NCBI GenBank assembly: GCA_021781535.1
Contig: JAJXWO010000002.1
Span: forward strand, 124,001 to 188,000
Length of the DNA stretch: 64,000 nt
From: Deltaproteobacteria bacterium
Lineage (GTDB): Bacteria > Desulfobacterota > Desulfuromonadia > Geobacterales > Pseudopelobacteraceae
Direction: 5' to 3'
Shown here: in pieces, positions 38,040 through 52,531 of the stretch
Layout of the letters: the number at the start of each line of letters is the position of its first letter
How positions within the stretch are numbered: position 1 is the first letter of the stretch
Notes under the pieces: model-generated
The model's database searches: none
Seen by the model: only the letters and a program-made list of their open reading frames with translations
Told to the model about the DNA's origin: nothing
Program-made: the position numbers and the translations under genes

Positions 38040-39293
38040 CTATTTCTTCGTATTGGCGGTCGCTTCCTTCCTGACTAGATAATTTGCGGTATAGATATAG
38101 TCATCCAGATAGTCATGTCTGCCATCACTGTTGGTGTCTTTTTTGGGGTTTACGGGCCCGTTATTTTTTGTGAACGCTATAAAATTCGTTTTAGAAGGTG
38201 AAAAACCATTGATAGGTGGAGCCAAAGTGAGAGGGTATTCGATAATATCGGTATCAGTCAGAATTGTCAGGCCAGCCTGTATAACGCCTGCCTGAGGCAG
38301 GGCTTCAATCATCCACGTTAAAGAGGCGTCATCCCTATGAACTGATACCAGCTTAGCGCCGTTCAGAGCAAAATTTGGTGATTTATCGCTGTTGCTCTTA
38401 AGTTTTACCACAATTTTCAGCAGGGTCTTACCATCACTCAGTGCAATGGCAGGCTGCTGATGAATATTTGGCGCAATTTCTTTCTTAAAAAGTGCAATAA
38501 ACATATCAGGAGTTTTTGCACCCTGATAAGCACGAAAGTTATCGAGAGTTCCTCTGTAGGATGTAATTACAGTTTCCTTTGATTTATTTGCTTCAGAAAC
38601 CGACGGTTTTTCTGCAGGAGATTCAGTCGGTTCCGCAGATGCTGATTCAGTGGGTTGATGAGGTGCACTGGTTGTGTCTGCCGATTTTACCTCACTTTTG
38701 GTCAGAGCATCAGACGGCAGGCTTACGGTACCCAGATAGACCGGTGTTGATGAAGCAGGCGGAGTGGATGTGGATAATGCTCCTGTGGAGCCGGCGGCAG
38801 GGGTGATTGCCGTTGTAGCGGAATTTTGTTGGTTGAACGGGATGCCTGGTGACGAGATGAAACCGGTTGTGGATGAGGAGGAGCCCGTTTCTGCTGTTAC
38901 CGGTAATGCCTTGCTGTCGATCATGTTGGCAGATGTTATTGTAATGCTAGACGTTCCTTTATGTGTTGCAAATGAAACAGTGGCAATCGGTCCACTTCCC
39001 GAAAACGACGTAGTGCTGATAATTGCTATTTTGATAGTTCCTGGAATATTTGTATTGGCAGCAAACAGAGCATCGCCGATAAGGCTGCCTTTCGTAACTG
39101 TCGGTGATGCCAGTGTCGAAATGTCGTAGGTGATGTTTAACTCTATTCCGGATACTCCATCCATGTTGTTACCTTGAACTATGTAGGTTCCGCTGTTGGA
39201 TGGCGGTACTGTTATGGCCGCTGCGAAAACCATTGAATTACTGAACAACAGCAGAAATACGGCAATAACATATTGTATGAGGTATCTAAACAT
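38040..39293 (-). CDS. Exported cohesin-like protein with EF-hand-like tail
   Basis: A 417-aa secreted protein. Residues 1-25 are a signal peptide (VIAVFLLLFSNSMVFAA). Residues about 27-145 resemble a cohesin-type beta sandwich: VSGIELNITYDISTLASPTV, GTIKIAIISTTSFSGSGPIATVSFA. A Ser/Thr/Ala/Pro-rich linker (about 145-235) follows, then an unrecognised domain. The tail KKDTNSDGRHDYLDDYIY looks like a single EF-hand or dockerin-type calcium loop. GAGAGG precedes ATG 39293. It is the last gene of the accessory locus, downstream of the cytochrome fusion. A scaffold or docking role is inferred from the domains and from the dockerin-like end of the nearby multicopper oxidase. Confidence 0.75.
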   Translation of the reverse strand: MFRYLIQYVIAVFLLLFSNSMVFAAAITVPPSNSGTYIVQGNNMDGVSGIELNITYDISTLASPTVTKGSLIGDALFAANTNIPGTIKIAIISTTSFSGSGPIATVSFATHKGTSSITITSANMIDSKALPVTAETGSSSSTTGFISSPGIPFNQQNSATTAITPAAGSTGALSTSTPPASSTPVYLGTVSLPSDALTKSEVKSADTTSAPHQPTESASAEPTESPAEKPSVSEANKSKETVITSYRGTLDNFRAYQGAKTPDMFIALFKKEIAPNIHQQPAIALSDGKTLLKIVVKLKSNSDKSPNFALNGAKLVSVHRDDASLTWMIEALPQAGVIQAGLTILTDTDIIEYPLTLAPPINGFSPSKTNFIAFTKNNGPVNPKKDTNSDGRHDYLDDYIYTANYLVRKEATANTKK

Positions 39294-39330
39294 TGTTGCC
39301 TCTCTTTTACACTAAGGTGTTTTTTAAACA

Positions 39331-39355
39331 TAGTGGCAAGCAAAGTCTGCCACTA
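39331..39355 (-). terminator. Stem-loop between cytochrome-fusion and cohesin genes
   Basis: TAGTGGCA and TGCCACTA form an 8-bp perfect stem with a 9-base loop in the 94-base gap. On the minus strand it is followed by TGTTTAAAAAA rather than a clean T-run, so it may be a weak terminator or an RNA processing site that sets a lower level of the last gene. Confidence 0.45.
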
Positions 39356-39387
39356 ATGGAATTGAATGAAAATAAGAAAAATGAAAA

Positions 39388-41127
39388 TCAGTAAATTACC
39401 CAATCGCTTTTTCTGATCAGGTCAGGCTCAGATCCTTGAGACAATTGGACAATGTAACATCCCTTTGATGCGTATCGTTGGTTCGGTCCGAAGCTGAAGC
39501 GGGCATAGATCGAAGATGGTTGGTCCGGTACCATGCTGATCACGTCTAATAGTTTGTCGCGATAATAATAGCCGTACATGTCCATCAGGACCATTGTCAG
39601 TACCTCGGTAAGTGATTGTGTTACGCTGGAAATGCCCTGTGCGCGGTTGTTTATCGGGCTGTTCCTCAGGGGGGTCTGCCATTGTGAGTCATCTTCCACG
39701 GTTGTACTGCCCATGGAAGAATAGATTACAGTCCGGGCAAATGAGTAAGGGTATGTGATATAGGTAAATGCGCGCGACCGTTCAGGTAGTAATTGTATTT
39801 TTCTTCCCAGATAACGCGCTGAGACAAAAACGAGTTCAGGTCTCGTGCTGCTCTCAGACAGTATGTCCAGCGCCAGCAGGCTTTCTGAACTATCCCACAG
39901 GAGAAATACAACCGGCTTTCCGGTAACCGGTAATTGCTTGATAAATTGTCTTGTGATCTTTTCGCCTGGCTTCAATTTAATTGTTACTACCGCGTGGTGT
40001 CCTGTGTTCTCCCATGTCTGGTCAAAACCGGCGGCAAGTGCACGGCCCTCGCGTGACTCCCTGACAATCTGCACGATCATTTTGTCGGATTTAATATCAT
40101 CTTTGTTGTTAAGATAGTGGGCCGCCGCCTCACCCTCCTGAAAATAGCCTTTTGACGGATACAAGGTATACCAGTCAGTGGGAGAAATAACCGGAAAATC
40201 TGTCTGGGGAAGGATACAGGGAATTTGCTTGTCTTCGCTGAACTTGTGGATAACGCTCCAGTCGCCGTAGGTTATCCCACCAAGTAGTGCAAATATTGGC
40301 TCTGTGCGATAGTACTCTTCGAGTTGGGCGCGCCAGGTCTCCGGGGGGCCTTTCAGGACCCAGGTCGACAGCGTCATGGTGCGTGTTGCCAGTTCTTTTG
40401 AAACAAACATATTTTCCGCCATCAGGCGTGATTTTCTTCCTGATGGCCGTTGGTACGCTCGTGCCTGACTGTTTTTAATATTTATGTACAGTTGCAACGG
40501 AGCCAGCATAGCCGCACGATCTTGGGGGCTTACATCATCGGTAACAATGGTCGCAAAATGGAGTGCCATCTTGGAAACTCCAGGAGAAAATTGTGTCGAG
40601 AGAGATTTTAGATAAGAAATGAGGATTGCCATATCATTATCTTCGAGCAGATAACGGGGCATGATGTCATTTAGATGGCCACCGGTGGGGGTTTCGCCGC
40701 TCCGAATAACTTCGGCGAGAGTTGTATCATTATATGCCGGTCGGCGGTCAGGAAAAGGGAAATATTTTTGTTCAAGACCTTTGAAGAGAACCCGGAACGG
40801 CTTGTAGAGTATCGTTCCGTTTGTTGGAGGTGTGAATACCCCCCCCTCACTTGACCCGAGCCCACTCTGCATATGGCAGCTAACACAGGAGAAGGCTGTG
40901 CCTGGTACCGGGAGATCACCTTTTATAAAAGCGGTCATTGGTTCTCCGGAGGGCAGGATTCCACTACGATATAACCGTTCTCCCAGCTGGAGAATTTCCT
41001 GGGAAGAACGAGGCGGTTGTATTGATTCACCATATGTGCTTGGTACCATGACAGAAAACAGAAATAACATGGCACAAAGGAGTGCAACGGTTACAAAATT
41101 ATATGGCCTGTTGTTCCATCGACTCAT
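39388..41127 (-). CDS. Monoheme cytochrome c fused to a periplasmic binding protein-like domain
   Basis: A 579-aa exported protein. A signal or anchor segment (VALLCAMLFLFSVMV) is followed by a cytochrome c domain with CVSCH at residues 81-85 and a likely axial Met in DIMPRYLL. From about residue 195 there is a long alpha/beta region with the look of a type I periplasmic binding protein of the branched-chain amino acid group: LLGGITYGDWSVIHKF, IPCILPQTDFPVIS, FFQ-type EGEAAAHYL, and VVFLLWDSSESLLALDIL. I am less sure of this second domain. ATG 41127 overlaps the stop of the SCO gene. The fusion suggests redox sensing or electron transfer tied to ligand binding. Confidence 0.78.
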   Translation of the reverse strand: MSRWNNRPYNFVTVALLCAMLFLFSVMVPSTYGESIQPPRSSQEILQLGERLYRSGILPSGEPMTAFIKGDLPVPGTAFSCVSCHMQSGLGSSEGGVFTPPTNGTILYKPFRVLFKGLEQKYFPFPDRRPAYNDTTLAEVIRSGETPTGGHLNDIMPRYLLEDNDMAILISYLKSLSTQFSPGVSKMALHFATIVTDDVSPQDRAAMLAPLQLYINIKNSQARAYQRPSGRKSRLMAENMFVSKELATRTMTLSTWVLKGPPETWRAQLEEYYRTEPIFALLGGITYGDWSVIHKFSEDKQIPCILPQTDFPVISPTDWYTLYPSKGYFQEGEAAAHYLNNKDDIKSDKMIVQIVRESREGRALAAGFDQTWENTGHHAVVTIKLKPGEKITRQFIKQLPVTGKPVVFLLWDSSESLLALDILSESSTRPELVFVSARYLGRKIQLLPERSRAFTYITYPYSFARTVIYSSMGSTTVEDDSQWQTPLRNSPINNRAQGISSVTQSLTEVLTMVLMDMYGYYYRDKLLDVISMVPDQPSSIYARFSFGPNQRYASKGCYIVQLSQGSEPDLIRKSDWVIY

Positions 41128-41702
41128 TTTATCCCTACTTTCTGGAACTCGCTCAAGAATTCCGAACTGCTCATGAGCCCGAAAATCCTGACCCATGTAC
41201 CATCTGCCGGCGAACGAATAAAGGTCAGTGGATAGTGGGACATTTTGTTGGGGATATAGGCATTAAAGGCATACATGACGCGATCGATGTTTTTACGCGA
41301 ACCAGTGAGAAAATCCCACCCCGGTTTTGCCCTATATCGTTTCAAATACTCCTTCATGACTTTTGGAGTATCGTTTTCAGGGTCAATTGAAATGGAGATC
41401 AAGTGGATTTTTTGTGAGTCAAGACCAAGTTTGTTTTGGAGATTTATAAATCCTGCTGACAGTACTGGACAGATTGTTGTACAGGTCCCAAAGATGAAGT
41501 CGACAACGACAGGTTTGTTTGATTGTATCAAGTCCTTTAGGCGGACTTTAGCACCGTTTTGGTTGATCAGAACAACATCGGGCATAGTGTAATTTTCAAT
41601 CGTGCGTTTGTATTTCTGCTCGGCGGAATAAGCCTGGCTTGTGCCACAGAGGATCAGGGTGATTGTCAGGATAATGAGAATATACGGTGTTTTAGGCGCC
41701 AT
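41124..41702 (-). CDS. SCO1/SenC-type copper chaperone
   Basis: A 192-aa exported thioredoxin-fold protein of the SCO family, which delivers copper to, or reduces cysteines of, copper enzymes. After a signal segment (ILIILTITLILCGTSQAYS) it has PVVVDFIFGTCTTICPVLS with the CxxxC copper pair, ISIDPENDTPKVMKEY, and a His candidate in MSHYPLTF. ATG 41702 has AGGAG 7 bases upstream. No cytochrome oxidase genes are near, so the probable client is the multicopper oxidase of this locus. It is coupled to the cytochrome-fusion gene. Confidence 0.88.
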   Translation of the reverse strand: MAPKTPYILIILTITLILCGTSQAYSAEQKYKRTIENYTMPDVVLINQNGAKVRLKDLIQSNKPVVVDFIFGTCTTICPVLSAGFINLQNKLGLDSQKIHLISISIDPENDTPKVMKEYLKRYRAKPGWDFLTGSRKNIDRVMYAFNAYIPNKMSHYPLTFIRSPADGTWVRIFGLMSSSEFLSEFQKVGIK

Positions 41703-41751
41703 GCAAATTCTCCTGCTGTTGTTGATTACGAGTTTTCTGGTTCGTGGCGTC

Positions 41752-41793
41752 AAAAAAAACTGGTAACGGTTATTTATACCACCGCTACCAGTT
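41752..41793 (-). terminator. Intrinsic terminator after the lipoprotein gene
   Basis: On the minus strand AACTGGTAGCGGT and ACCGTTACCAGTT pair with one mismatch and are followed by a T-run of eight. It lies between the cohesin-like lipoprotein and the SCO gene, so the locus is split into at least two transcription units or the level drops here. Confidence 0.85.
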
Positions 41794-41814
41794 CTTCAAG
41801 CCGATTTACAAAAC

Positions 41815-42372
41815 TTATTGATAGGTTGTTACAAAATTGGTTTTGCTGCCGGTCGGATAACTTGTATCGTGAGTTGATAAAACTTCCTGGCCGACTTCTG
41901 CCAAGCTGTCTGATACCGGCATGGAAGTAGGGATATTTCCCGCTGTCGCAAGGCTGAAATTAATTGTAGCAATTTCCTTCCCATTGCCACTTGAACCACT
42001 TTTCAGAGAAACCCTGGAAGAATTAACAAGATTGAGGGTTAACACCCTGCTGGCGATGTCGTATGAACTGGAGTTAAAATCAGATGTCGAAACCATAACC
42101 GGCCCTGACGGAACTAGTACCCCTTTACGTAGTTTACAGAGACCAGATGTGGCACCGGGTGCAGATGAGTAGTTTACTAATACACCGCTGGGTATATTCA
42201 ACGTTGTCCTGACCGTTCCCACAATGTTAGCTGCAGATGTGATATTACCAAACAGATAGACTTTGGTTGTTGCTTTAGCCGCTCCGCCACCACCGCCACC
42301 ACCGCCACCGCATCCGGCAAGTGCGAGAGCAGAAAAAATACAGATTATTGTTGTCGTGACATATTTTTTCAT
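41815..42372 (-). CDS. Lipoprotein with poly-Gly linker and probable cohesin-like domain
   Basis: A 185-aa lipoprotein. The signal segment ends ALALAGC with the lipidated Cys at residue 21, directly followed by nine glycines. The mature part has NIPSGVLVNYSSAPG, VSTSDFNSSSYDIASRVLTLNLV and GKEIATINFSLATAGNIPTS, an alternating beta pattern like the cohesin-type domains of secreted Geobacter proteins. That fold call is tentative. AGGAG lies 8 bases before ATG 42372. It is the next gene after the multicopper oxidase, so it may be the membrane receptor for the oxidase's dockerin-like end. Confidence 0.68.
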   Translation of the reverse strand: MKKYVTTTIICIFSALALAGCGGGGGGGGGAAKATTKVYLFGNITSAANIVGTVRTTLNIPSGVLVNYSSAPGATSGLCKLRKGVLVPSGPVMVSTSDFNSSSYDIASRVLTLNLVNSSRVSLKSGSSGNGKEIATINFSLATAGNIPTSMPVSDSLAEVGQEVLSTHDTSYPTGSKTNFVTTYQ

Positions 42373-42395
42373 AGAATAATCTCCTGGTTGGGTAT

Positions 42396-42434
42396 GCATG
42401 GAAGGCCTCATCGACGGGAGGAGGCCTTCCATGC
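42396..42434. repeat. Perfect 14-bp inverted repeat between oxidase and lipoprotein genes
   Basis: GCATGGAAGGCCTC (42396-42409) and GAGGCCTTCCATGC (42421-42434) are exact reverse complements with an 11-base loop. It begins 2 bases after the oxidase stop codon in transcription direction. No T-run follows, so it is more likely a 3'-end stabiliser or processing site than a terminator. Confidence 0.8.
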
Positions 42435-42436
42435 CG

Positions 42437-45400
42437 TTAGAATGTTGATATCAGGCCAACACTACGTAGCATGATGGTGTAAACATCCAGCAGGTCTACT
42501 TTACCGTCTGGGTGTGCCGCACCGCCGGAATATGGCGCTACGTCAGCATGAACCAAGTCCAGAGCTGTTGGGGCAACAAATCCGCTGGCAATTTTCAGTG
42601 CCTTAAGGGCGCTTGCAATATACCCTGTCGAGCCGGGGATCAACCCATCCTTGGTGCCCAACAGGATCGTGGCCGTGATGGGTGGATATGTTGTACCACC
42701 ACCCAGATTGGTGTCGGTGAATCTTACGTACACAGTTTTCGAGCCCTCACCATCGGTTAAGGTCCAACTTGGAGTTATTGTTATGGTGGCTCCGGCAGTC
42801 GTGTCCGGTGAGGGGAATGGGCCTGACCAGGTTACACCGTCGTTTGAAAGTTCATAACTGGCAATACCGGTAGGGTCGGAACCTTTCAGTGTCAAAGTGA
42901 CACTTGGGATCGGCGTCCAGCTAGCCCCGTTGTTGATATTGATACTGGCCTTCAAATCAATCGTGGCCATACTCCACACGCCGGTCTTTACCGCTTCCTG
43001 GTTGCCGGAATTGTCGACAGCAAAGTATTTGATGGTGGTTGATGAACCGGCAGCCGAATTGACTTGAATGGGAGTTGCATAAACCGCTGACGACGTGGTC
43101 GGTGTCGTGCCGTCGGCCGTGTAATAAATCTTTGCTGCTTCGTTTGCATTCAATGCCACCGCGAGTGGAGAACCATTGGTGTATGAGCCGGGGATCGGAC
43201 TAGGCGTGGTGACCGGCGGAGTCGTGTCCAGGGCAATGGCGGCAGTGATCGGTGGATACTGCACGCCGGTTGGCAGCGATTTGTCGCGGAATCGGACATA
43301 GACAGTTCTTGGGCCGTCACTGCCGTTTGCGAGAGTCCAGGACTTGCTGGTAGCATAGGGCTCTTCAATAAAAGGCCATACGGAACCGTCATTGGAAAAC
43401 TGCATGGTGTCAACGCCGGTCGGGTCATACGCATTCAGGGTCAGGTTGACTGTAAGGTTGTTTGTGGATGTTGCTCCATTATTGATGCTTGCCGTGGCAA
43501 TCAGGTCCGGATCATGAATGTACCATGTGTCCGAATGAACAGCTTCTGCTGTTCCGTTCACATCAACGGCAAAGTATTGAATGTTGGTAGTCCCATTTAC
43601 CACAATCGGCGTAGTGAAAATGGGTGATGCCGTAGTCGGCAGGTTTCCGTCGATCGTGTAGTAGATTGTTGCTGGCGGTGCGTTTGTCGTTGCCGTCAGG
43701 CTTACCAGTACTGGGGCAGCGGAGTAGGTAGCAGGAACCGGGCTGGCTATGGTTACCGGAGGCTGCGGAGGTTCGTTGACAACATGGGTTATGGTGGTGC
43801 TTGCAACCGGATTTTGTCCAAGACTGGTACGCGCCTCGACAGTAATGGTATACGTGCCGACAGGTGTCGTGGCAGGCAGGGTCCACATATTGTTGTTACT
43901 GAATGCTTGTGTCTCCACATTGTTGAGTAGGAACCGATACTGATATTGTGCAGTAAGCGGAGGGGTAGGAGCCGGGTTTGGTTGAGTAACCGTTGCTCCG
44001 GAGCCGGTTGCAACGAACTGAACATTAGTACCGACCACGTGGCCAATCGGCTTGCTATCGACGACAGTTACTGCTGTGGCATCCGTCCAGGAACCGGTCG
44101 TAGCGGTGACAGGGCCGTCAAGTGAATTTGTTGGTCCCACAGCGTTGAATGCTATGATCTGATACGAGTAGGTCGTCCCGGGATTAACCGATGTATCCGT
44201 ATAGATGGGCGGGTATCCCGGTAAGTATGATACTTCGGCAATTGGGGTGTTGTCGCGTAAAATACGGAAACTGCTCGGTGCTGAAATTGGCGCACCGTCA
44301 TTCCATTGAAGGATAACCTGATTGACATTTGGGTTGACGTACGAGGTGATATAACTCGTTTTACCGGGCACGGTAGCGCCACCGACAAAGGCGCCACCTG
44401 CAGGGGCAAAAGATGGTGCTGCTGCTGCTGTTATTGAGGTTTTAAAGACAACTGGCCTCATGAAATCATTTTCTTCGTGCCCCAGGATGTGGCAGTGCCA
44501 GACGTATTCATAACCGTAGTCTGTGAAATTGTGATCGTTGTTGGCTACAGTTGTGACGACACCGGCGACAGGTGTCCCGGTTCCTCCCGGTATGTTTCCA
44601 AAGTCAGTGGCAATAATACGCGCATTATCAGGGAGCGCAGGGTCTATATTACGAATACTTCTTGGTAGCGGAAGGCCTGCAGCACCTGGATCGGTATTCA
44701 GAGCCACCCACGTAGCGGGCAAGGTTTGTGACTTCGGCCGCATGGCTACGATGATGTCCTCCAGGGGGTTCATCCTGACGGTTTCCTTCCAGCCCAGCTC
44801 ATTTTCGTCAGGCGGACGAATGGCGCCATCCCAGCCGACCCGGTTGATCACCTGAACGTCGAACATGTGGAAGTGAACCGGGTGGGTGTCAACGCCGTTG
44901 TGGGTTATCTTCCATATCTGTGGCTGGCCATCGGTAATTATCTCGGTGGCCGGCTCGTTGTAGCCCATGGGGATAGTCGTCTGGTTAAATTGATTGGTAA
45001 AGGGGAGTTCTACCCCAAGTGTAGCGTTCATGCGACCGTAGGGATCCCATAATTCCTGTATTGCTTTGGGGTGGAACGGAATGGTGACCGGAATAGCACT
45101 CTGGGTATAGTCGCTATTGAGCGGCTTCAGGGTCATGGCATAATCTTGAATCTTCGCATACTGCTCTGTCGGCGCATATCCTCCGGACGCGAGTGGATGT
45201 GTCGGTTCTGGAACCAGAGGCGCCGGTTGGCTGGCTTTGAATGCTACTGGCAACGCGGCTTGCAGCGCAGCAAGATTAAACGGCGTGGCTGGAGTTCCGG
45301 CTACACGGAATTGCATGATGGTGCGCATGTTGGGGCCGTATCCCCGCAAGGTAGAAGGTGCACCGCCGTTTACCGTCTGGTCGGGGTTGCCCGTGTAGTA

Positions 45401-47161
45401 ATCGACGCGCGGATCAGACGCCGGTATGGGAGCAGGGGCATCGTTATAAAGGATGACGGTTTTGCCGACAAATTGGGAAAAGTCGATAATTACGTCGGCC
45501 CGTTCCGCAGCGCCCATAAAAAGGTTTTTTTCCTGGACGTTCAACACAACAATATCACGGCGGTTATAGTTGTAGTTGACCGGTTGATTGGGATGTACGA
45601 CCGGATAGGGCAGGAAGCCGCTTTCGCTGCCGATCTGGACTATGTTCGGGCCCTTGGTCGCGGGATCAGGGACTCCTCCATCCCTTCCATCTGTCGGCCA
45701 CCCCGCCGGAAAGGAAGGGTTCGGACCTGCCGGGACCATCTTGACCTCGGTATTGGAAGGATCGTTGGGATCGGAGACAAACAGACTCAAATTGTAGCCG
45801 CGGTCGTTACTGGCATTTAGGATCCGGAAACGATAGGTCTTGGGCTCCACCGACAGATAGGGGTAGGCGGTGCCGTTGATCACAGGGGTATCCATGAAGG
45901 CTTCCGGGGTAGTTGATGGCTCAGGCAGTGTCGAGCGATCTGCGGGAACTGAAATGGGGGGCCAGAACCAGGGGCCGTAATCCCAGCGACCAAAGGGGTT
46001 TGCCCCCGCCGGGCTGGTAGGGTCCTGATTTGGCTCATAGACATGCGGGAACCACAGGTCGCCGTAGCTTCCCCAATTGTTTGCCACTCCTTTGGAATTT
46101 TTGGTCCACAAGGCATCCTGGACATCGATGTTTTTGGGCACGAATGTTTTGTCCTGAATAATCAAAGGGATGCCGTAACGGTACTCGCAGGTCGCCGTCG
46201 GACCGCCGGGGCAAATATTGGGAAGGATACCGGTGTCGATCAAATTCTCCTCGACCGGATCTGTCAGCAGATAACCTGCGGCCTCGCCGGCATAGACATT
46301 CAGACGCGTGACGCCCAATGAGTGATCATGATAAAACATCAACCGGTTACTCTGCTGATTGGTCCAGTAGAAGGTCATTTCCCCGTCATTGGTAGGCGGC
46401 ATGTCGGGTACGTCCCGTGTGCTTACGCCCTTCTTGTAAGGGGTCGTTTCACCGGCCGGCACAGTCCATTGGTTGGGTGTCCCATCGCTGATCCAGGGCG
46501 AGTTGCCGCCGTGCAAGTGAGCGGTGACCCGGTTTTGGGTGTATGACACGTTAGTCGGGCAGTTTTCCGAGATGTTTTGTGTTGGATTACTGGGATCAGG
46601 GCGGAGCACGGAACACGGGGTACCATCGGCGGCTAGTGGTCCTGTTCCGGCCCCCATAAGTGTGTTGTCAACCGGTATAAAAAGATTGCCGGCTGTGCCG
46701 GTGGGGAGTTGATTTACGAGCTTGACGCGGACCGGCACGTTTCGTTTGGCTATGATCAACGGTCCAAGATAATGGGCGGACATGTTTGAAAAAACAGGGT
46801 TGAGATCCTTATACCCCCTGAGTAAGGTCTTCTTGGGAAGATCGGAATGCATCTTCTCTCCATACTGAACGACCCCGATTTCATAATAATCGCCATCGTT
46901 GGGCACTCCGGCCGGTAGTTGTGCTGGCGTAAATTTTTGTGCAATGGGAATGTACTGCCCGAGGTTGTTCTTGTTGGCAGCCCCCAGGCCGGCCAGCGAA
47001 TCAACAAACTTTCGGAGCGCCGTTCCTGATGCTCCTCCAGATGGGCTGTTGGCATAGTATGTACCACCTCCGGGGCCTGCCTGGGCCTGGTTTATGCCCC
47101 ATGGAACGGTAAACAGTACCACCAGCACGCTCAGTAGTTTCCAGAAAATTTGTCTGTTCAT
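42437..47161 (-). CDS. Giant exported multicopper oxidase with dockerin-like C-terminus (OmpB/MofA-like)
   Basis: A 1574-aa secreted copper oxidase. Residues 1-28 are a signal peptide. All four copper-binding motifs are present: HLHGG (215-217), FYHDHS (278-280), HPVHFHMF near 760, and WHCHILGHEENDFM near 890, including the type-1 Cys and an axial Met. A fibronectin III-like segment follows (about 935-1030). Two copies of a chitobiase C-terminal-like module (IYYTIDGNLPTT, IYYTADGTTPTT) are each followed by an Ig-like module with DPTG and SNDG. The end (HPDGKVDLLDVYTIMLRSVG) is dockerin-like. Size resembles the Geobacter Fe(III)-reduction proteins OmpB/OmpC and the manganese oxidase MofA. The substrate is unknown; Mn(II), Fe(II) or an electron-transfer role are possible. 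Confidence 0.87.
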   Translation of the reverse strand: MNRQIFWKLLSVLVVLFTVPWGINQAQAGPGGGTYYANSPSGGASGTALRKFVDSLAGLGAANKNNLGQYIPIAQKFTPAQLPAGVPNDGDYYEIGVVQYGEKMHSDLPKKTLLRGYKDLNPVFSNMSAHYLGPLIIAKRNVPVRVKLVNQLPTGTAGNLFIPVDNTLMGAGTGPLAADGTPCSVLRPDPSNPTQNISENCPTNVSYTQNRVTAHLHGGNSPWISDGTPNQWTVPAGETTPYKKGVSTRDVPDMPPTNDGEMTFYWTNQQSNRLMFYHDHSLGVTRLNVYAGEAAGYLLTDPVEENLIDTGILPNICPGGPTATCEYRYGIPLIIQDKTFVPKNIDVQDALWTKNSKGVANNWGSYGDLWFPHVYEPNQDPTSPAGANPFGRWDYGPWFWPPISVPADRSTLPEPSTTPEAFMDTPVINGTAYPYLSVEPKTYRFRILNASNDRGYNLSLFVSDPNDPSNTEVKMVPAGPNPSFPAGWPTDGRDGGVPDPATKGPNIVQIGSESGFLPYPVVHPNQPVNYNYNRRDIVVLNVQEKNLFMGAAERADVIIDFSQFVGKTVILYNDAPAPIPASDPRVDYYTGNPDQTVNGGAPSTLRGYGPNMRTIMQFRVAGTPATPFNLAALQAALPVAFKASQPAPLVPEPTHPLASGGYAPTEQYAKIQDYAMTLKPLNSDYTQSAIPVTIPFHPKAIQELWDPYGRMNATLGVELPFTNQFNQTTIPMGYNEPATEIITDGQPQIWKITHNGVDTHPVHFHMFDVQVINRVGWDGAIRPPDENELGWKETVRMNPLEDIIVAMRPKSQTLPATWVALNTDPGAAGLPLPRSIRNIDPALPDNARIIATDFGNIPGGTGTPVAGVVTTVANNDHNFTDYGYEYVWHCHILGHEENDFMRPVVFKTSITAAAAPSFAPAGGAFVGGATVPGKTSYITSYVNPNVNQVILQWNDGAPISAPSSFRILRDNTPIAEVSYLPGYPPIYTDTSVNPGTTYSYQIIAFNAVGPTNSLDGPVTATTGSWTDATAVTVVDSKPIGHVVGTNVQFVATGSGATVTQPNPAPTPPLTAQYQYRFLLNNVETQAFSNNNMWTLPATTPVGTYTITVEARTSLGQNPVASTTITHVVNEPPQPPVTIASPVPATYSAAPVLVSLTATTNAPPATIYYTIDGNLPTTASPIFTTPIVVNGTTNIQYFAVDVNGTAEAVHSDTWYIHDPDLIATASINNGATSTNNLTVNLTLNAYDPTGVDTMQFSNDGSVWPFIEEPYATSKSWTLANGSDGPRTVYVRFRDKSLPTGVQYPPITAAIALDTTPPVTTPSPIPGSYTNGSPLAVALNANEAAKIYYTADGTTPTTSSAVYATPIQVNSAAGSSTTIKYFAVDNSGNQEAVKTGVWSMATIDLKASININNGASWTPIPSVTLTLKGSDPTGIASYELSNDGVTWSGPFPSPDTTAGATITITPSWTLTDGEGSKTVYVRFTDTNLGGGTTYPPITATILLGTKDGLIPGSTGYIASALKALKIASGFVAPTALDLVHADVAPYSGGAAHPDGKVDLLDVYTIMLRSVGLISTF

Positions 47162-47254: not shown

Positions 47255-47944
47255 TTATTTTATTGCCAACAGCTCCACCTCGAAAATGAGGGCCTCGTTC
47301 GGTCCGATGGAATAGCCCGCTCCCCGCTCTCCGTAGGCAAGCTGGGGGGGGATGAAAAGTAGCCACTTCGAACCAAGCGGCATAAGTTTGAGAGCCTCTT
47401 TCCAGCCAGGAATGACGCCATCCGATATATTGACATGCAACGGTTTTCCCGTCACAAAGGTATTTTCAAATTCAGTCCCATCAAGGTGAGTACCACGATA
47501 GTTGCACTCCACAGTGTCGGAATTTGTTGGTTTCTTTCCTTTCGCCGTTGTGAGGATTTTGTACTGCAACCCGCTTGGTAAAGTTACTACACCAGGCTTA
47601 GACTTGTTTTCAGCCAAAAAGGCGTCACCTTTTTTCTTGTTGTCAATTGACGAAATTCTTTTGGTAGCGGCCTGCTTTTGCCGCAACTCGGCTTGGAAGT
47701 CTGCCATCGACTTGCGCAGTTCATTTTCTGAGACAAGTAACTTTCCGGACAATCCATCTGTCATGCCCCTGATAACCATATCGAGATCAAAATTTATGCC
47801 CTGGTTTTTAAAGTTTCTGACTACCTCGACCCCAATGCCATAATTTATTTTATCCATCGGAGACTTGAAGGGCTGGAGCTCATTTGCTTCTGCCTGGGTA
47901 ACCATAAGACCAAGGCCAATAATCAGCATTAATATCATTTTCAT
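47255..47944 (-). CDS. FKBP-type peptidyl-prolyl isomerase, exported (FkpA/Mip-like)
   Basis: A 229-aa periplasmic folding catalyst. A signal peptide (MILMLIIGLGLMVTQAEA) leads to an N-terminal helical dimerisation domain (SPMDKINYGIGVEVVRNFK, then a long charged helix). The C-terminal FKBP domain shows DTVECNYRGTHLDGTEFENTF, VIPGWKEALKLMPLGSKW and PPQLAYGERG. ATG 47944 is used because GGGAG lies 5 bases upstream; ATG 47956 is possible. It directly precedes the oxidase gene, whose proline-rich chain is a likely client. Confidence 0.9.
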   Translation of the reverse strand: MKMILMLIIGLGLMVTQAEANELQPFKSPMDKINYGIGVEVVRNFKNQGINFDLDMVIRGMTDGLSGKLLVSENELRKSMADFQAELRQKQAATKRISSIDNKKKGDAFLAENKSKPGVVTLPSGLQYKILTTAKGKKPTNSDTVECNYRGTHLDGTEFENTFVTGKPLHVNISDGVIPGWKEALKLMPLGSKWLLFIPPQLAYGERGAGYSIGPNEALIFEVELLAIK

Positions 47945-47972
47945 CAGTACTCCCATGTGGGTTCAAGTGCTT

Positions 47973-48324: not shown

Positions 48325-48786
48325 TTAAAGGCATAAATAGTTATTTTTCTCTTGTTCATCTGCAAGCAGATGCAACGTTCGTAACATCGACAGAATCAGT
48401 GACGGTTTGACAGGTTTTTCAAAGTAGTGGTAGGTACCGAGTTCGTGTGCGGTCTTTTTTAACTCGTCACTGCCATAACCTGTTACGAGAATCACCTTCG
48501 CGTACGGTTGCTCTTTTCGCACTTCCTCTACAAAATAAATACCCTCTTCGCTATCGGATCCTGCAAAGCGTACGTCTGAAATAACGGCAAAGTAATCATT
48601 GGATTTCAAAAGAGCCGTTGCCGTTTCAATACTTTCGCACGTATCAAAACCAAAACGTTCACTTGCAAATAACTTGCGGTAAGCAAAACAGATTGCCGGC
48701 TCATTATCTACGATCAAAACTCGATGGAGTTCCGGTTTAGTATTGTCACCTGACGGTGAATTATATTGACTCTCTTGATAGCTCAT
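48325..48786 (-). CDS. Stand-alone response regulator receiver protein
   Basis: A 153-aa single-domain receiver. It has the acidic start HRVLIVDNEPAIC, the phosphoacceptor Asp in YFAVISDVRFAG, the Thr of ILVTGYG, and the Lys of YFEKPVKP. No output domain follows. ATG 48786 is chosen; a longer reading to 48912 lacks conserved sequence. It lies between the NtrC-type regulator and the exported-protein genes and could act as a phosphate sink or a second target of the kinase. Confidence 0.82.
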   Translation of the reverse strand: MSYQESQYNSPSGDNTKPELHRVLIVDNEPAICFAYRKLFASERFGFDTCESIETATALLKSNDYFAVISDVRFAGSDSEEGIYFVEEVRKEQPYAKVILVTGYGSDELKKTAHELGTYHYFEKPVKPSLILSMLRTLHLLADEQEKNNYLCL

Positions 48787-48944
48787 TGTTATCTGCTCAT
48801 CAAGAATTGTGCCGACGTGATTTTGTTTGTGATGTGAATGAAATCGGCAGGTTGTTCGATTGAACAAATTCTGAATTGTCTCAAAAGGAGAAAAAATCTC
48901 AGTTTGAGACAAGTGGAGTGAGAATGGCGGGTGTGTCTGTTGTT

Positions 48945-50258
48945 CTATTGATTTTGTTTCAATCTCCGATAAAGGGTCGCGCGTGAAATATTGAGGCTTT
49001 TTGCTGCCTTTTCAATGTTGCCACCCGCCTGATCGAGAACCGCTCTGATATGTTCTCCTTCAACCTCCTGCACTGTGCGCTGGATTTGTGCCGGTTTGGG
49101 GGGGCGATGAGGTGCCAGGTTTGAAAATGCCGACTGGCGAATTATTGCACCGGGCGGAGTAAGCAACAGGGCCCGCTCAAGAACACTTCTCAACTCCCGG
49201 ATATTGCCGGGCCAGGGGTAGGCACGGAGCATTTTCATGCATTCATCGGAAAGCACGTCCGAGGTTGAACCGAGCGAGCGGAGCAGATATGAGGTCAATG
49301 CCGGAAGATCATCCATGCACTCTCTGAGAGGCGGCAAGTGCAGTTTCATCATGTTGATCCGAAATACAAGATCCCGTCGGAACTGCCCCAATTCCACCAA
49401 TGAATCAATGTCGTGATGTGTCGCGCAAATGAGGCGAAAATTGCTTCTCAACAGCTTTATATCGCCGAGTCTGCGGTAACTTTTATCCTCCAGTACCTTG
49501 AGAAACTGTGCCTGGACATCAATACTCATGTCGCCGATTTCATCAAGAAACAGTGTCCCACGGTCAGCAGCATCAAGCAGTCCTTTGCGGTCCTGGTCGG
49601 CAGAAGTGAAAGCGCCTTTGACATTTCCGAAAATTTCTCGTGAAAGCATCTCTCCTCGCAAGCCGGAACAGTTCAGTTCAACGCATTCATTTGATGCGCG
49701 AGAACTGTGCTGATGAATCCATCGGGCAAGCATTCCTTTGCCAGTGCCGGTCTCACCGGTAATGAGTACCGGTATGTCGCTGGCTGCAGCCGCAAGTGCC
49801 AGCGTATGCACTTCCTGAATGATTTTATTGCTGCCGACAAAGAAAATATCCTTCTTTTCGAGTCGTTTTCGAACCGATTGCTGCTTTTTCAGGATGCCGA
49901 TTTCGAGTGTTTTAGACATAAATACAGCGAGAGCGGCATTATCAACCGGTTTGGTCATGAAGTTGTCCGCCCCGCGCCGCATGGCCTCAACGGCGAGAGG
50001 AATATCGCCTTCACCGGTTATAACAATGATCGGAATGCACGGCTCTTGTGTCCGTGCGGTGTGGATAAAGTCGATTCCGTTCCCGTCCGGCAGGTTTATG
50101 TCAAGAACTATGATGTCACAACGTCGGGCGGCAAGAATGGCTGTCGCCTCGGCAAGATTCGCCGCCTCATGGATCTCATAGCCATCTTTGGAAAAATAGC
50201 GGACAAAGCCGAAACGGGTGGAAGCATTGTCTTCAATTAATAGTACGCTGGGTTTCAA
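48945..50258 (-). CDS. NtrC-family sigma-54-dependent response regulator
   Basis: A 437-aa activator with three parts. The receiver domain has the phosphoacceptor Asp in IIVLDINLPDG. The AAA+ domain shows Walker A GETGTGKG, GAFTSAD at the sigma-54 contact loop and LFLDEIGDM as Walker B. The C-terminal Fis-type helix-turn-helix is GGNIEKAAKSLNISRATLYRRLK. GAFTSAD is a mild variant of the usual GAFTGA. TTG 50258 overlaps the kinase stop and has AGGAGG upstream. It probably activates sigma-54 promoters in this locus; I could not find a convincing -24/-12 site. Confidence 0.92.
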   Translation of the reverse strand: MKPSVLLIEDNASTRFGFVRYFSKDGYEIHEAANLAEATAILAARRCDIIVLDINLPDGNGIDFIHTARTQEPCIPIIVITGEGDIPLAVEAMRRGADNFMTKPVDNAALAVFMSKTLEIGILKKQQSVRKRLEKKDIFFVGSNKIIQEVHTLALAAAASDIPVLITGETGTGKGMLARWIHQHSSRASNECVELNCSGLRGEMLSREIFGNVKGAFTSADQDRKGLLDAADRGTLFLDEIGDMSIDVQAQFLKVLEDKSYRRLGDIKLLRSNFRLICATHHDIDSLVELGQFRRDLVFRINMMKLHLPPLRECMDDLPALTSYLLRSLGSTSDVLSDECMKMLRAYPWPGNIRELRSVLERALLLTPPGAIIRQSAFSNLAPHRPPKPAQIQRTVQEVEGEHIRAVLDQAGGNIEKAAKSLNISRATLYRRLKQNQ

Positions 50259-52531
50259 TGTGATTCCTCCTGGTAAAGCGGGATGCAAATTTCAACGGTA
50301 CATCCTGGTGGTGGGCTATTGTTCCAAATCTGTACAGTTCCGCCGATGTTTTCAATAAAGTGTTTGACAAGGGCGAGGCCGAGACCGGTGCCCCCTTTTC
50401 GATCGGTATAGAAGGGTTCAAAAACGTGTGAGAGTTTCTCTTCAGGTATGCCGGTCCCCTGATCGATTACCTGTATGACTGCCATGGCTTTGGCACTATC
50501 AAGGCCATTATGGGTTAGTCGAACCAAAATTCTGCTGCTGCCTGGAGTGTGAGATCCGGCGTTTTCCAGCAGATTAAAAAATACCTGTTGCAGTTTGAGG
50601 CCATCAGCTAAAACCAGGATTGGCTTGTCGTTATCTTCGGAGGTCAAGATACCCTGCTTGTTTTCAGATGCGCCGGTGGACTTCCAGAGATCCAACGCCT
50701 CACAGCATACCTGGGTAAGTGGTAGTGGTTGCATGCTGGCTGCTGGAATCGTTCTTCCCAGGTCAAGCAGGTCGTTCATCAGGTGGGCCAGACGGTTGAC
50801 TTGTGTTCTGATATGCTGGATGAACGGTTCCAGTTCAGGGTTGGAGACAATTTCTTTCTCCCTGAACAGGGCCTCGGTTATGGTGAGAATAGCATTCAAC
50901 GGATTACGCACTTCATGGGCAACACCACCGGCAATCTGACCGATAGCCTCAAGTCGTTTGGCGTTGAGCAGCCGCTGCTCAAGGGTTTCCCGTTCAACTA
51001 TTTCCTGGCGGAGCAGTGAGTTGATTTCTGAAAGATCGGCTGTCCGTTCAGTAATCTGCTGCTCCAGACGAGCATGGATACCTTGAAGTTCTGATTCGGC
51101 GTTCTTCTGGACAGTGATGTCATAGCAGCTGCCGATGTAGCCGGCAAAATCACCATTCAGGTCATAGTAGGGGCAGCCATGATCATTGATCCAGTGATAG
51201 CTGCCGTCATTAAAGCGCAGCCGATACTCCATCCTGAATGCGTGGTGGCTGTTAAATGCCTCCCTGTAGATGGTGACGCACCGCTCCAGGTCTTCCGGGT
51301 GAACTCCGTCCATCCAGCCGTCATCCAACTCTTGTGCAAGTGACCGTCCGGTGAAAGCCAACCACGTCTGGTTAAAATAATCACAACGGGCGTTGGAGTC
51401 TGAACGCCAGATGAGAGACGGGAAAATTTCCAGCAATTTCATGTGGTAGTCACGTGATTGGATCAAGTCGTCTTCTGATTTCTTCAGTTCAAGGTTATGG
51501 TGCTGCTCAATTGTAACCATCTTGCGAAGCATTTCCGCTTTTTTGCGGGTGCCCAACAGGAAGATGCCGAGAATTTCGGTGAAAATTAATACCACTCCAG
51601 CAAACGACACCATCAAGGTCGTCTTTAAAAGTGGTGCCATTACTTCACTGGCATCAATTTTAGTAACGATTCCCCATCGCGTACCGGGTATAATTCTGGT
51701 CGTAGCAATCACCCTGGTATTACGATAATCGATCCCCTCAAAGCTCCCCTCCTGCCCAAGTGCGGCCCTCACCGCCGGTACGGCGCGATTGGTGAGCGGA
51801 ATCTGGAATGGAGTCGTTGTATTTGTTCGAGAGCGGAGACTGTTCAGGAAAAGAACGGAATCACCTTCACGCATTACAAGCAGTGTTTCCGCTGATGAGC
51901 TGGCGGTTGGCCAGGACTTGACAAGGGGATAAAGACGTTTGGCCGGGTCGATGTCGAGCACCAGTACGGCAATGCAACGGCCAGCTTGCATGATCGGAAT
52001 GGCGAGGTTTATGTTATAGGCTCCGATATCAGTGTCACGATGAAAATTCGAAAGTATTAATTCTTGTTCCTTGCCAGCTTCAGAAACCAGTTTTTGGTAA
52101 TGCTGCGACAGTGGCAAAGGCACCGCTGAATCGGAAGTAATTATTTCACCGTCGGGGGAAAAGATGATTCCGTTACTGTATTCACCAAGGTCAACCAGGC
52201 TCGACAGCCAAAGTTTGCATTCCTGGAGAATTACCTTTTTGCTCTTGTCAGCAATGTAGTCATTGATGCGACGGGCCATCATCGCATTTGCACGTATTGA
52301 TGCACCTTCGGCAAAGCGCTCCTTGCGCCATTGTGCTATCTGGGAGGTCTTAAGGTCTGCAATGGTTGAAATTTCTTCGTATTTTTGGGTGAGTAAAAGC
52401 TGTTTTTGTTGTTGGATCAAGCTATAAGAGACAAAAATGACAAGAGTTATAAAAATAAAAATGGCGAGAAATAATCTGGCTGAATCAGACCACGGTTTTT
52501 TTGCGAGGGGAGGGCTTTGCATGCGTAACAA
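50255..52531 (-). CDS. Membrane sensor histidine kinase with extracytoplasmic sensor and PAS domain
   Basis: A 758-aa kinase. A first membrane helix (LFLAIFIFITLVIFVSYSL) and a second near residue 310 (FAGVVLIFTEILGIFLL) flank about 260 periplasmic residues of Cache-like character. Inside the cell come a PAS/PAC unit (about 375-485, FNQTWLAFTGRS, GSYHWINDHG), a coiled coil, and a HisKA domain with the phospho-His in GGVAHEVRNPLNA. An ATPase domain follows with NLLENAG, DQGTGIP and GGTGLGLALV. TTG 52531 or ATG 52522 is the start. It is coupled to the NtrC-type regulator, its likely partner. Confidence 0.9.
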   Translation of the reverse strand: MLRMQSPPLAKKPWSDSARLFLAIFIFITLVIFVSYSLIQQQKQLLLTQKYEEISTIADLKTSQIAQWRKERFAEGASIRANAMMARRINDYIADKSKKVILQECKLWLSSLVDLGEYSNGIIFSPDGEIITSDSAVPLPLSQHYQKLVSEAGKEQELILSNFHRDTDIGAYNINLAIPIMQAGRCIAVLVLDIDPAKRLYPLVKSWPTASSSAETLLVMREGDSVLFLNSLRSRTNTTTPFQIPLTNRAVPAVRAALGQEGSFEGIDYRNTRVIATTRIIPGTRWGIVTKIDASEVMAPLLKTTLMVSFAGVVLIFTEILGIFLLGTRKKAEMLRKMVTIEQHHNLELKKSEDDLIQSRDYHMKLLEIFPSLIWRSDSNARCDYFNQTWLAFTGRSLAQELDDGWMDGVHPEDLERCVTIYREAFNSHHAFRMEYRLRFNDGSYHWINDHGCPYYDLNGDFAGYIGSCYDITVQKNAESELQGIHARLEQQITERTADLSEINSLLRQEIVERETLEQRLLNAKRLEAIGQIAGGVAHEVRNPLNAILTITEALFREKEIVSNPELEPFIQHIRTQVNRLAHLMNDLLDLGRTIPAASMQPLPLTQVCCEALDLWKSTGASENKQGILTSEDNDKPILVLADGLKLQQVFFNLLENAGSHTPGSSRILVRLTHNGLDSAKAMAVIQVIDQGTGIPEEKLSHVFEPFYTDRKGGTGLGLALVKHFIENIGGTVQIWNNSPPPGCTVEICIPLYQEESH

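Follow-up and report, generated by a model that had tools for sequence, protein, structure and literature searches.

Background

Giant multicopper oxidases of the OmpB/MofA type are encoded in clusters (ompB of Geobacter sulfurreducens, mofABC of Leptothrix) that also hold isomerase, cytochrome c/periplasmic-binding protein and SCO genes, and in the available text of the source the isomerase of these clusters is regarded as a folding chaperone and the SCO protein as a copper chaperone (PMC5566968). Cohesins and dockerins outside cellulosomes have been described for archaea and syntrophic sulfate reducers (PMC9012536, PMC10553843, PMC5244752), and the accessible parts of these papers describe scaffoldin-like proteins in anaerobic methanotrophic (ANME) archaea (PMC9012536) and adjacent cohesin and dockerin domains in a syntrophic sulfate reducer (PMC10553843). 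Dockerin-bearing Geobacter laccase genes, together with dockerin, cupredoxin and laccase transcripts in soil, appear in the available portion of PMC6199725. Here we examine a 64,000-nucleotide stretch of contig JAJXWO010000002.1 (the window), from a genome of 133 contigs and 3.8 Mb, in which the gene for a giant multicopper oxidase with a dockerin-like tail is followed by one for a cohesin-like lipoprotein.

Our analyses make it probable that this oxidase is exported and that its tail binds the cohesin-like domain of the lipoprotein encoded immediately downstream. Such docking, which may depend on calcium, would tether the oxidase to the envelope, in all likelihood at the outer membrane. Oxidase and lipoprotein would be one case of a two-gene module spread through the lineage, in which a gene for a large tail-ending protein precedes one for a cohesin-like lipoprotein. 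A neighbour-encoded cohesin lipoprotein anchor would be a directly testable answer to the question of how metal-reducing bacteria keep OmpB-type copper proteins and other giant proteins on the cell. A metal-redox role is suggested for this oxidase purely by analogy.

Results and discussion

The oxidase and its tail

The elements on which this proposal is built are the following.

42437 to 47161, minus strand: giant multicopper oxidase of 1574 residues, resembling OmpB/MofA in domain content and gene context (Cu-oxidase_2 and CHB_HEX_C_1 in Pfam).
42440 to 42631, minus strand: dockerin-like C-terminal tail of the oxidase, its last 64 residues, conserved in the oxidase-tail profile A1 and with relatives that match PF00404.
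42485 to 42544, minus strand: single intact F-hand-like loop of the oxidase tail, DVAPYSGGAAHPDGKVDLLD (pattern match).
42396 to 42434, minus strand: GC-rich hairpin in the intergenic gap, after the oxidase stop and before the ribosome-binding site of the lipoprotein gene (minimum free energy -30.5 kcal/mol, z -5.51 against dinucleotide shuffles).
41815 to 42372, minus strand: cohesin-like lipoprotein of 185 residues, the proposed receptor and membrane anchor (lipobox LAGC; predicted fold).
41818 to 42282, minus strand: cohesin-like domain of the lipoprotein, residues 31 to 185.

The open reading frames (ORFs) on which a sequence-only reading of this DNA had built were all found in place on the minus strand. 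Its claim that the four copper motifs of the oxidase are intact was borne out, as each was located in the 1574-residue sequence (HLHGG at residue 215, YHDHS at 277, HPVHFH at 760 and WHCHILGHE at 888). The first named relative of the oxidase among the matches listed came from Oryzomonas japonica. The C-terminal end of the protein reads ...DVAPYSGGAAHPDGKVDLLDVYTIMLRSVGLISTF, and the profile built from nine oxidase tails (A1) found matches in 104 of the 277 genomes of the class.

From these matches we assembled a set of 87 tail genes, after removal of repeats and of genes with less than 700 nucleotides of room, which became 86 when one internal match was dropped. The tail regions numbered 80, of which 79 follow in rank order below the oxidases among the matches listed and one (L194 in our locus numbering) is out of order; one overlapping match and 13 better non-oxidase matches (L102-L114), whose loci were too short, were left out. 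In 86 of the 87 genes, no more than nine residues separate the tail from the C terminus. In the 86 aligned C-terminal tails of other proteins, the D and the P of a DVAP motif and the last loop D are kept in 85, 86 and 86, respectively, and this near-invariance argues that the tail is not a chance resemblance. A characteristic insertion (DVAPxxxGxxxPDG) marks the second loop. A canonical first-loop pattern, such as DINGDGTVDIVDA, was present in 22 of the 86 tails, the second-loop pattern in 79 and both in order in 20. Where a dockerin has two F-hands, the window tail has the second loop alone intact.

The A1 profile finds tails of other proteins, some of which match Dockerin_1: nine tails picked for an intact-looking first loop all did so, two of them above the curated cut-off, and in a wider set of tail proteins 4 of 40 matched at E ≤ 0.01. 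The dockerin relationship proposed for the oxidase tail is upheld in this way, and on sequence grounds the tail is a divergent dockerin, homologous to recognised ones. Direct searches gave no such name. PF00404 found no match above cut-off in the genome itself, Pfam and NCBIfam returned neither a dockerin for the window proteins nor a cohesin name for the lipoprotein, and the PDB sequence search with the oxidase-tail profile yielded no dockerin or cohesin.

The lipoprotein as candidate socket

The lipoprotein gene starts 64 nucleotides past the oxidase stop, and inspection places a lipobox, LAGC, in its product. In Escherichia coli, a glycine after the lipobox cysteine sorts a lipoprotein to the outer membrane; such a glycine follows directly here, and the outer membrane is therefore its likely location. 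The AF2 model (pLDDT 87.1) predicts the cohesin jelly-roll fold: cohesins head both fold-search lists, and the top 37 entries of one are all cohesins. With a cohesin fold likewise predicted for the exported protein described below, both candidate receptors of the sequence-only reading keep their assignment as cohesin-type. By profile, the lipoprotein links to a recognised cohesin only through an intermediate family, with scores of 98.4 and 88.9. PDB sequence searches with the oxidase-lipoprotein profile and with a wider lipoprotein profile (A7) returned no cohesin or dockerin.

Linkage of tail and lipoprotein in oxidase loci

The lipoprotein adjoins the tailed oxidase in all eight flanked loci (L034-L039, L041 and L045), and no lipoprotein match accompanies the complete tail-less oxidases of L042, L043, L047, L049, L051 and L052. 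Strong tail matches occur in 17 of the 277 genomes and strong lipoprotein matches in exactly those 17. The two genes are adjacent in 17 of 17, with the qualification that nine of these genomes supplied the profiles and some of their tail ORFs are not complete oxidases. A set of named records comprised 80 loci with 86 oxidase ORFs, 18 of them unscorable. There the lipoprotein stands beside all six tailed ORFs, whereas among 62 scorable tail-less ORFs some lipoprotein was found in four and this family in none; a p-value for this contrast overstates independence, because the six tailed ORFs come from related taxa and duplicate DNA already in the 277-genome set. Only a subset of the oxidases has the tail and the lipoprotein.

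Six of nine folded gaps between the two genes gave z below -2 (the window, L035, L036, L037, L041 and L045), with stems differing in sequence; L034 gave z -1.39, and L038 and L039 have no hairpin. In a survey of tail-cohesin gaps of at least 30 nucleotides, 24 of 60 had z below -3 against shuffles that keep base composition only, the window gap lying outside the top rows listed. The window hairpin has no following T-run and is perhaps an mRNA processing or stability element.

A two-gene module beyond the oxidases

A lipoprotein with a strict lipobox starts within 400 nucleotides downstream of 37 of the 87 tail genes, compared with 4 of 179 control ORFs. Within 1500 nucleotides downstream, a cohesin-profile match was found for 53 of 86 tail genes, spread over 16 of 19 protein clusters, a count that is partly circular in that the profile was trained on tail-adjacent lipoproteins. 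Counting from the cohesin side, a tail gene directly precedes 52 of 60 rank-ordered lipoproteins (its end no more than 700 nucleotides from the cohesin match), against a background, in the same loci, of a tail on 59 of 256 other ORFs of at least 200 residues. The 60 regions are the first rows without a locus of their own, rows with one being uncounted and an oxidase-type match (G040:C23) left out; some repeat genes of the tail set, and the count is not wholly blind because 3 of the 30 rows of A5 (L104, L107 and L113) came from tail loci. Related genomes are not independent in any of these counts. Of the eight misses, five do have a tail further upstream, at about 850 to 1620 nucleotides, three of these with long lipoprotein forms, and in these five the tail and cohesin genes are probably adjacent.

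The tail proteins are otherwise diverse, with bacterial immunoglobulin (Ig), fn3, NHL and beta-propeller repeats among the 40 scanned. Their 37 downstream lipoproteins comprise 25 short and 12 long forms. By eye, the long ones (L115, L134, L135, L147, L148, L152, L166-L168, L170, L173 and L193) add an N-terminal part to a C-terminal cohesin-like domain, of which L152 apparently has two; a carboxypeptidase-regulatory-like N-terminal part was found in 2 of the 37. Some loci hold one partner: L298, L304 and L320 encode cohesin-like lipoproteins with no tail gene in the stretch examined, and L119, L126 and L140 each hold several tail genes but gave no cohesin-profile match, so any receptor for those tails would lie elsewhere.

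Tail and cohesin distances are correlated (r 0.46 over 124 pairs from 59 genomes; 0 of 1000 within-genome shuffles as high). The correlation was r 0.24 for distant tails in different genomes (0 of 1000 shuffles) and r 0.60 for comparisons within a genome (2 of 1000). This fits matched pairs and also joint inheritance. Whether the Geobacterales hold a large set of mutually selective dockerin-tail/cohesin-lipoprotein pairs that display secreted proteins, metal-redox enzymes included, on the envelope, each tail mainly recognising its neighbour-encoded socket and most pairs missed by annotation, seems to us evenly balanced.

Other genes of the cluster

On the minus strand of the window the order is FKBP isomerase, oxidase, lipoprotein, SCO1/SenC, cytochrome/periplasmic-binding protein and an exported protein of 417 residues. 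The remaining elements are as follows.

47255 to 47956, minus strand: FKBP prolyl isomerase, MofB-like by kind (PF00254 and PF01346 in Pfam; published cluster).
41124 to 41753, minus strand: SCO1/SenC copper chaperone (PF02630, E 5.4e-21).
39388 to 41196, minus strand: protein combining cytochrome c and periplasmic-binding parts, MofC-like in its domains (sub-threshold matches to PF00034 and PF13458; one CVSCH; published cluster).
38040 to 39293, minus strand: exported cohesin protein of 417 residues with cohesin, linker, beta domain and F-hand, a possible adaptor.
38886 to 39221, minus strand: cohesin domain of the exported protein, about residues 25 to 136 (model elements; Foldseek 2xdh, E 4.5e-7).
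38103 to 38138, minus strand: canonical F-hand loop DTNSDGRHDYLD close to the C terminus of the exported protein (pattern match).

The SCO, heme protein and prolyl isomerase genes do lie in one run with the oxidase, as had been noted, with SCO1-SenC at E 5.4e-21, a weak cytochrome c match and an FKBP domain. The cytochrome/periplasmic-binding ORF contains a single CxxCH motif. As listed, it overlaps the SCO ORF by 73 nucleotides (39388-41753), and its true start may be internal.

The sequence-only reading had placed these three proteins in a surface-held copper complex assembled by cohesin/dockerin-like contacts. The contacts are supported by the cohesin folds, the dockerin-related tail and the 17/17 adjacency, but the three proteins as members are not: they fit the published OmpB/MofA cluster instead, and would mature or serve the oxidase. 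SCO and cytochrome were dropped as fixed members of the module, being found in none of the eight tailed loci; the isomerase type is present in seven. SCO and cytochrome stand beside the lipoprotein, as in the window, in L070 (genome G019), and they also adjoin tail-less oxidases (e.g., L042 and L051). In genome G018, SCO and cytochrome lie upstream of an oxidase that is truncated at a contig end (L044), and a tail, a lipoprotein and a soluble cohesin, which may or may not belong to it, are on a separate contig (L066).

The exported protein matches the Pfam Cohesin profile (PF00963) and is predicted to have the fold, with 2xdh (E 4.5e-7) found by Foldseek for its cohesin domain. Its F-hand loop, DTNSDGRHDYLD, was absent from the earlier account; the loop residues D, N, D, G, D and D are invariant across the five rows of alignment A3. 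This soluble cohesin, with a loop of its own, may extend the assembly. The proposal that it is part of the oxidase assembly holds as to its predicted fold but is loosened by its distribution: the family occurs in 117 of the 277 genomes, and a tail gene lies within 1.2 kb upstream in 7 of the 30 best-scoring loci, a sample biased towards oxidase clusters.

Upstream of the isomerase (48325-52531) are a response regulator, an NtrC-type regulator and a histidine kinase, which may control the oxidase cluster. All three types recur close to oxidases in L040 and L044, and two of the three in L041.

Alternative explanations

Several results weigh against a docked oxidase. The window tail alone matches no Pfam family at E ≤ 10, hence no Dockerin (PF00404), and the first loop has degenerated in the oxidase clade, leaving the window tail without first-repeat calcium ligands. 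The lipoprotein matches no Pfam family at E ≤ 1, hence no Cohesin (PF00963); direct comparison of its profile with the exported cohesin gave no match, and Pfam Cohesin was found, weakly, in 1 of the 37 tail-adjacent lipoproteins. For 33 of the 86 tail genes no cohesin-profile match lies within 1500 nucleotides downstream, and the co-variation of tails and cohesins may reflect joint inheritance, not binding. In one rival reading, two genes for surface proteins are simply inherited together, the tail is a vestigial cap or one that needs no partner, and the lipoprotein is just a generic beta sandwich. We find that very improbable given a fold list with cohesins in all of the top 37 entries and a linkage that recurs in 16 of 19 protein clusters (partly circular) and in 52 of 60 cases from the cohesin side.

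The exported cohesin, which has both a cohesin domain and an F-hand loop, could instead be the main receptor, or use that loop to link the oxidase tail to a third protein. It is not strictly linked to tails, as its genome and locus counts indicate, and two genes separate it from the lipoprotein in the window, which makes this unlikely. It is no likelier that the lipoprotein is a secretion pilot or chaperone that reads the tail as an export signal and forms no permanent tether. The terminal position of the tail in 86 of 87 genes is what a sorting signal would show, and G. sulfurreducens OmpB is reportedly secreted by an atypical type II system, according to a title (Mehta et al. 2006). Against this, dockerin/cohesin homology suggests stable docking, and the sockets vary along with their tails, which a single general secretion factor would not do. 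The tail is missing from many oxidases of the family, and OmpB/MofA homologs elsewhere are called extracellular in the available text of PMC5566968, so export does not in general require the tail. A neighbour-encoded tether remains our preferred explanation.

Comparison with known systems

In gene content the window agrees with the OmpB/MofA clusters, as far as the available text of PMC5566968 describes them: both have a giant multicopper oxidase with isomerase, cytochrome/periplasmic-binding and SCO neighbours, a likeness drawn from domain content and description. The dockerin-like tail and cohesin lipoprotein are what the window adds, in a subset of the oxidases only; in a text-match literature search, the accessible text of that paper seems to mention neither dockerin nor cohesin. 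In the available portion of PMC6199725 the transcripts come without a receptor, gene pair or anchoring mechanism, and "cohesin" is absent from its main text. The same search found no tail-lipoprotein pair in Geobacterales in the literature it covered, with Peer et al. 2009 (a non-cellulosomal survey), Mehta 2006 and Holmes 2008 outside it. A module that is this widespread in the lineage and mostly missed by Pfam could turn many hypothetical lipoproteins into named receptors, and orthogonal binding pairs for surface display might come from it.

With cellulosomal and non-cellulosomal systems (the Archaeoglobus fulgidus cohesin 2xdh, ANME archaea, sulfate reducers) the window has in common the cohesin fold and F-hand tails, in a non-cellulosomal setting. 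It does not have the make-up of a cellulosome: its two cohesin-like proteins have one such domain each, and no catalytic carbohydrate-active domain was found in the eight window proteins scanned. What sets it apart from those systems is a membrane lipoprotein, usually with one cohesin-like domain, encoded beside the tail gene, in Geobacterales and mostly below Pfam detection.
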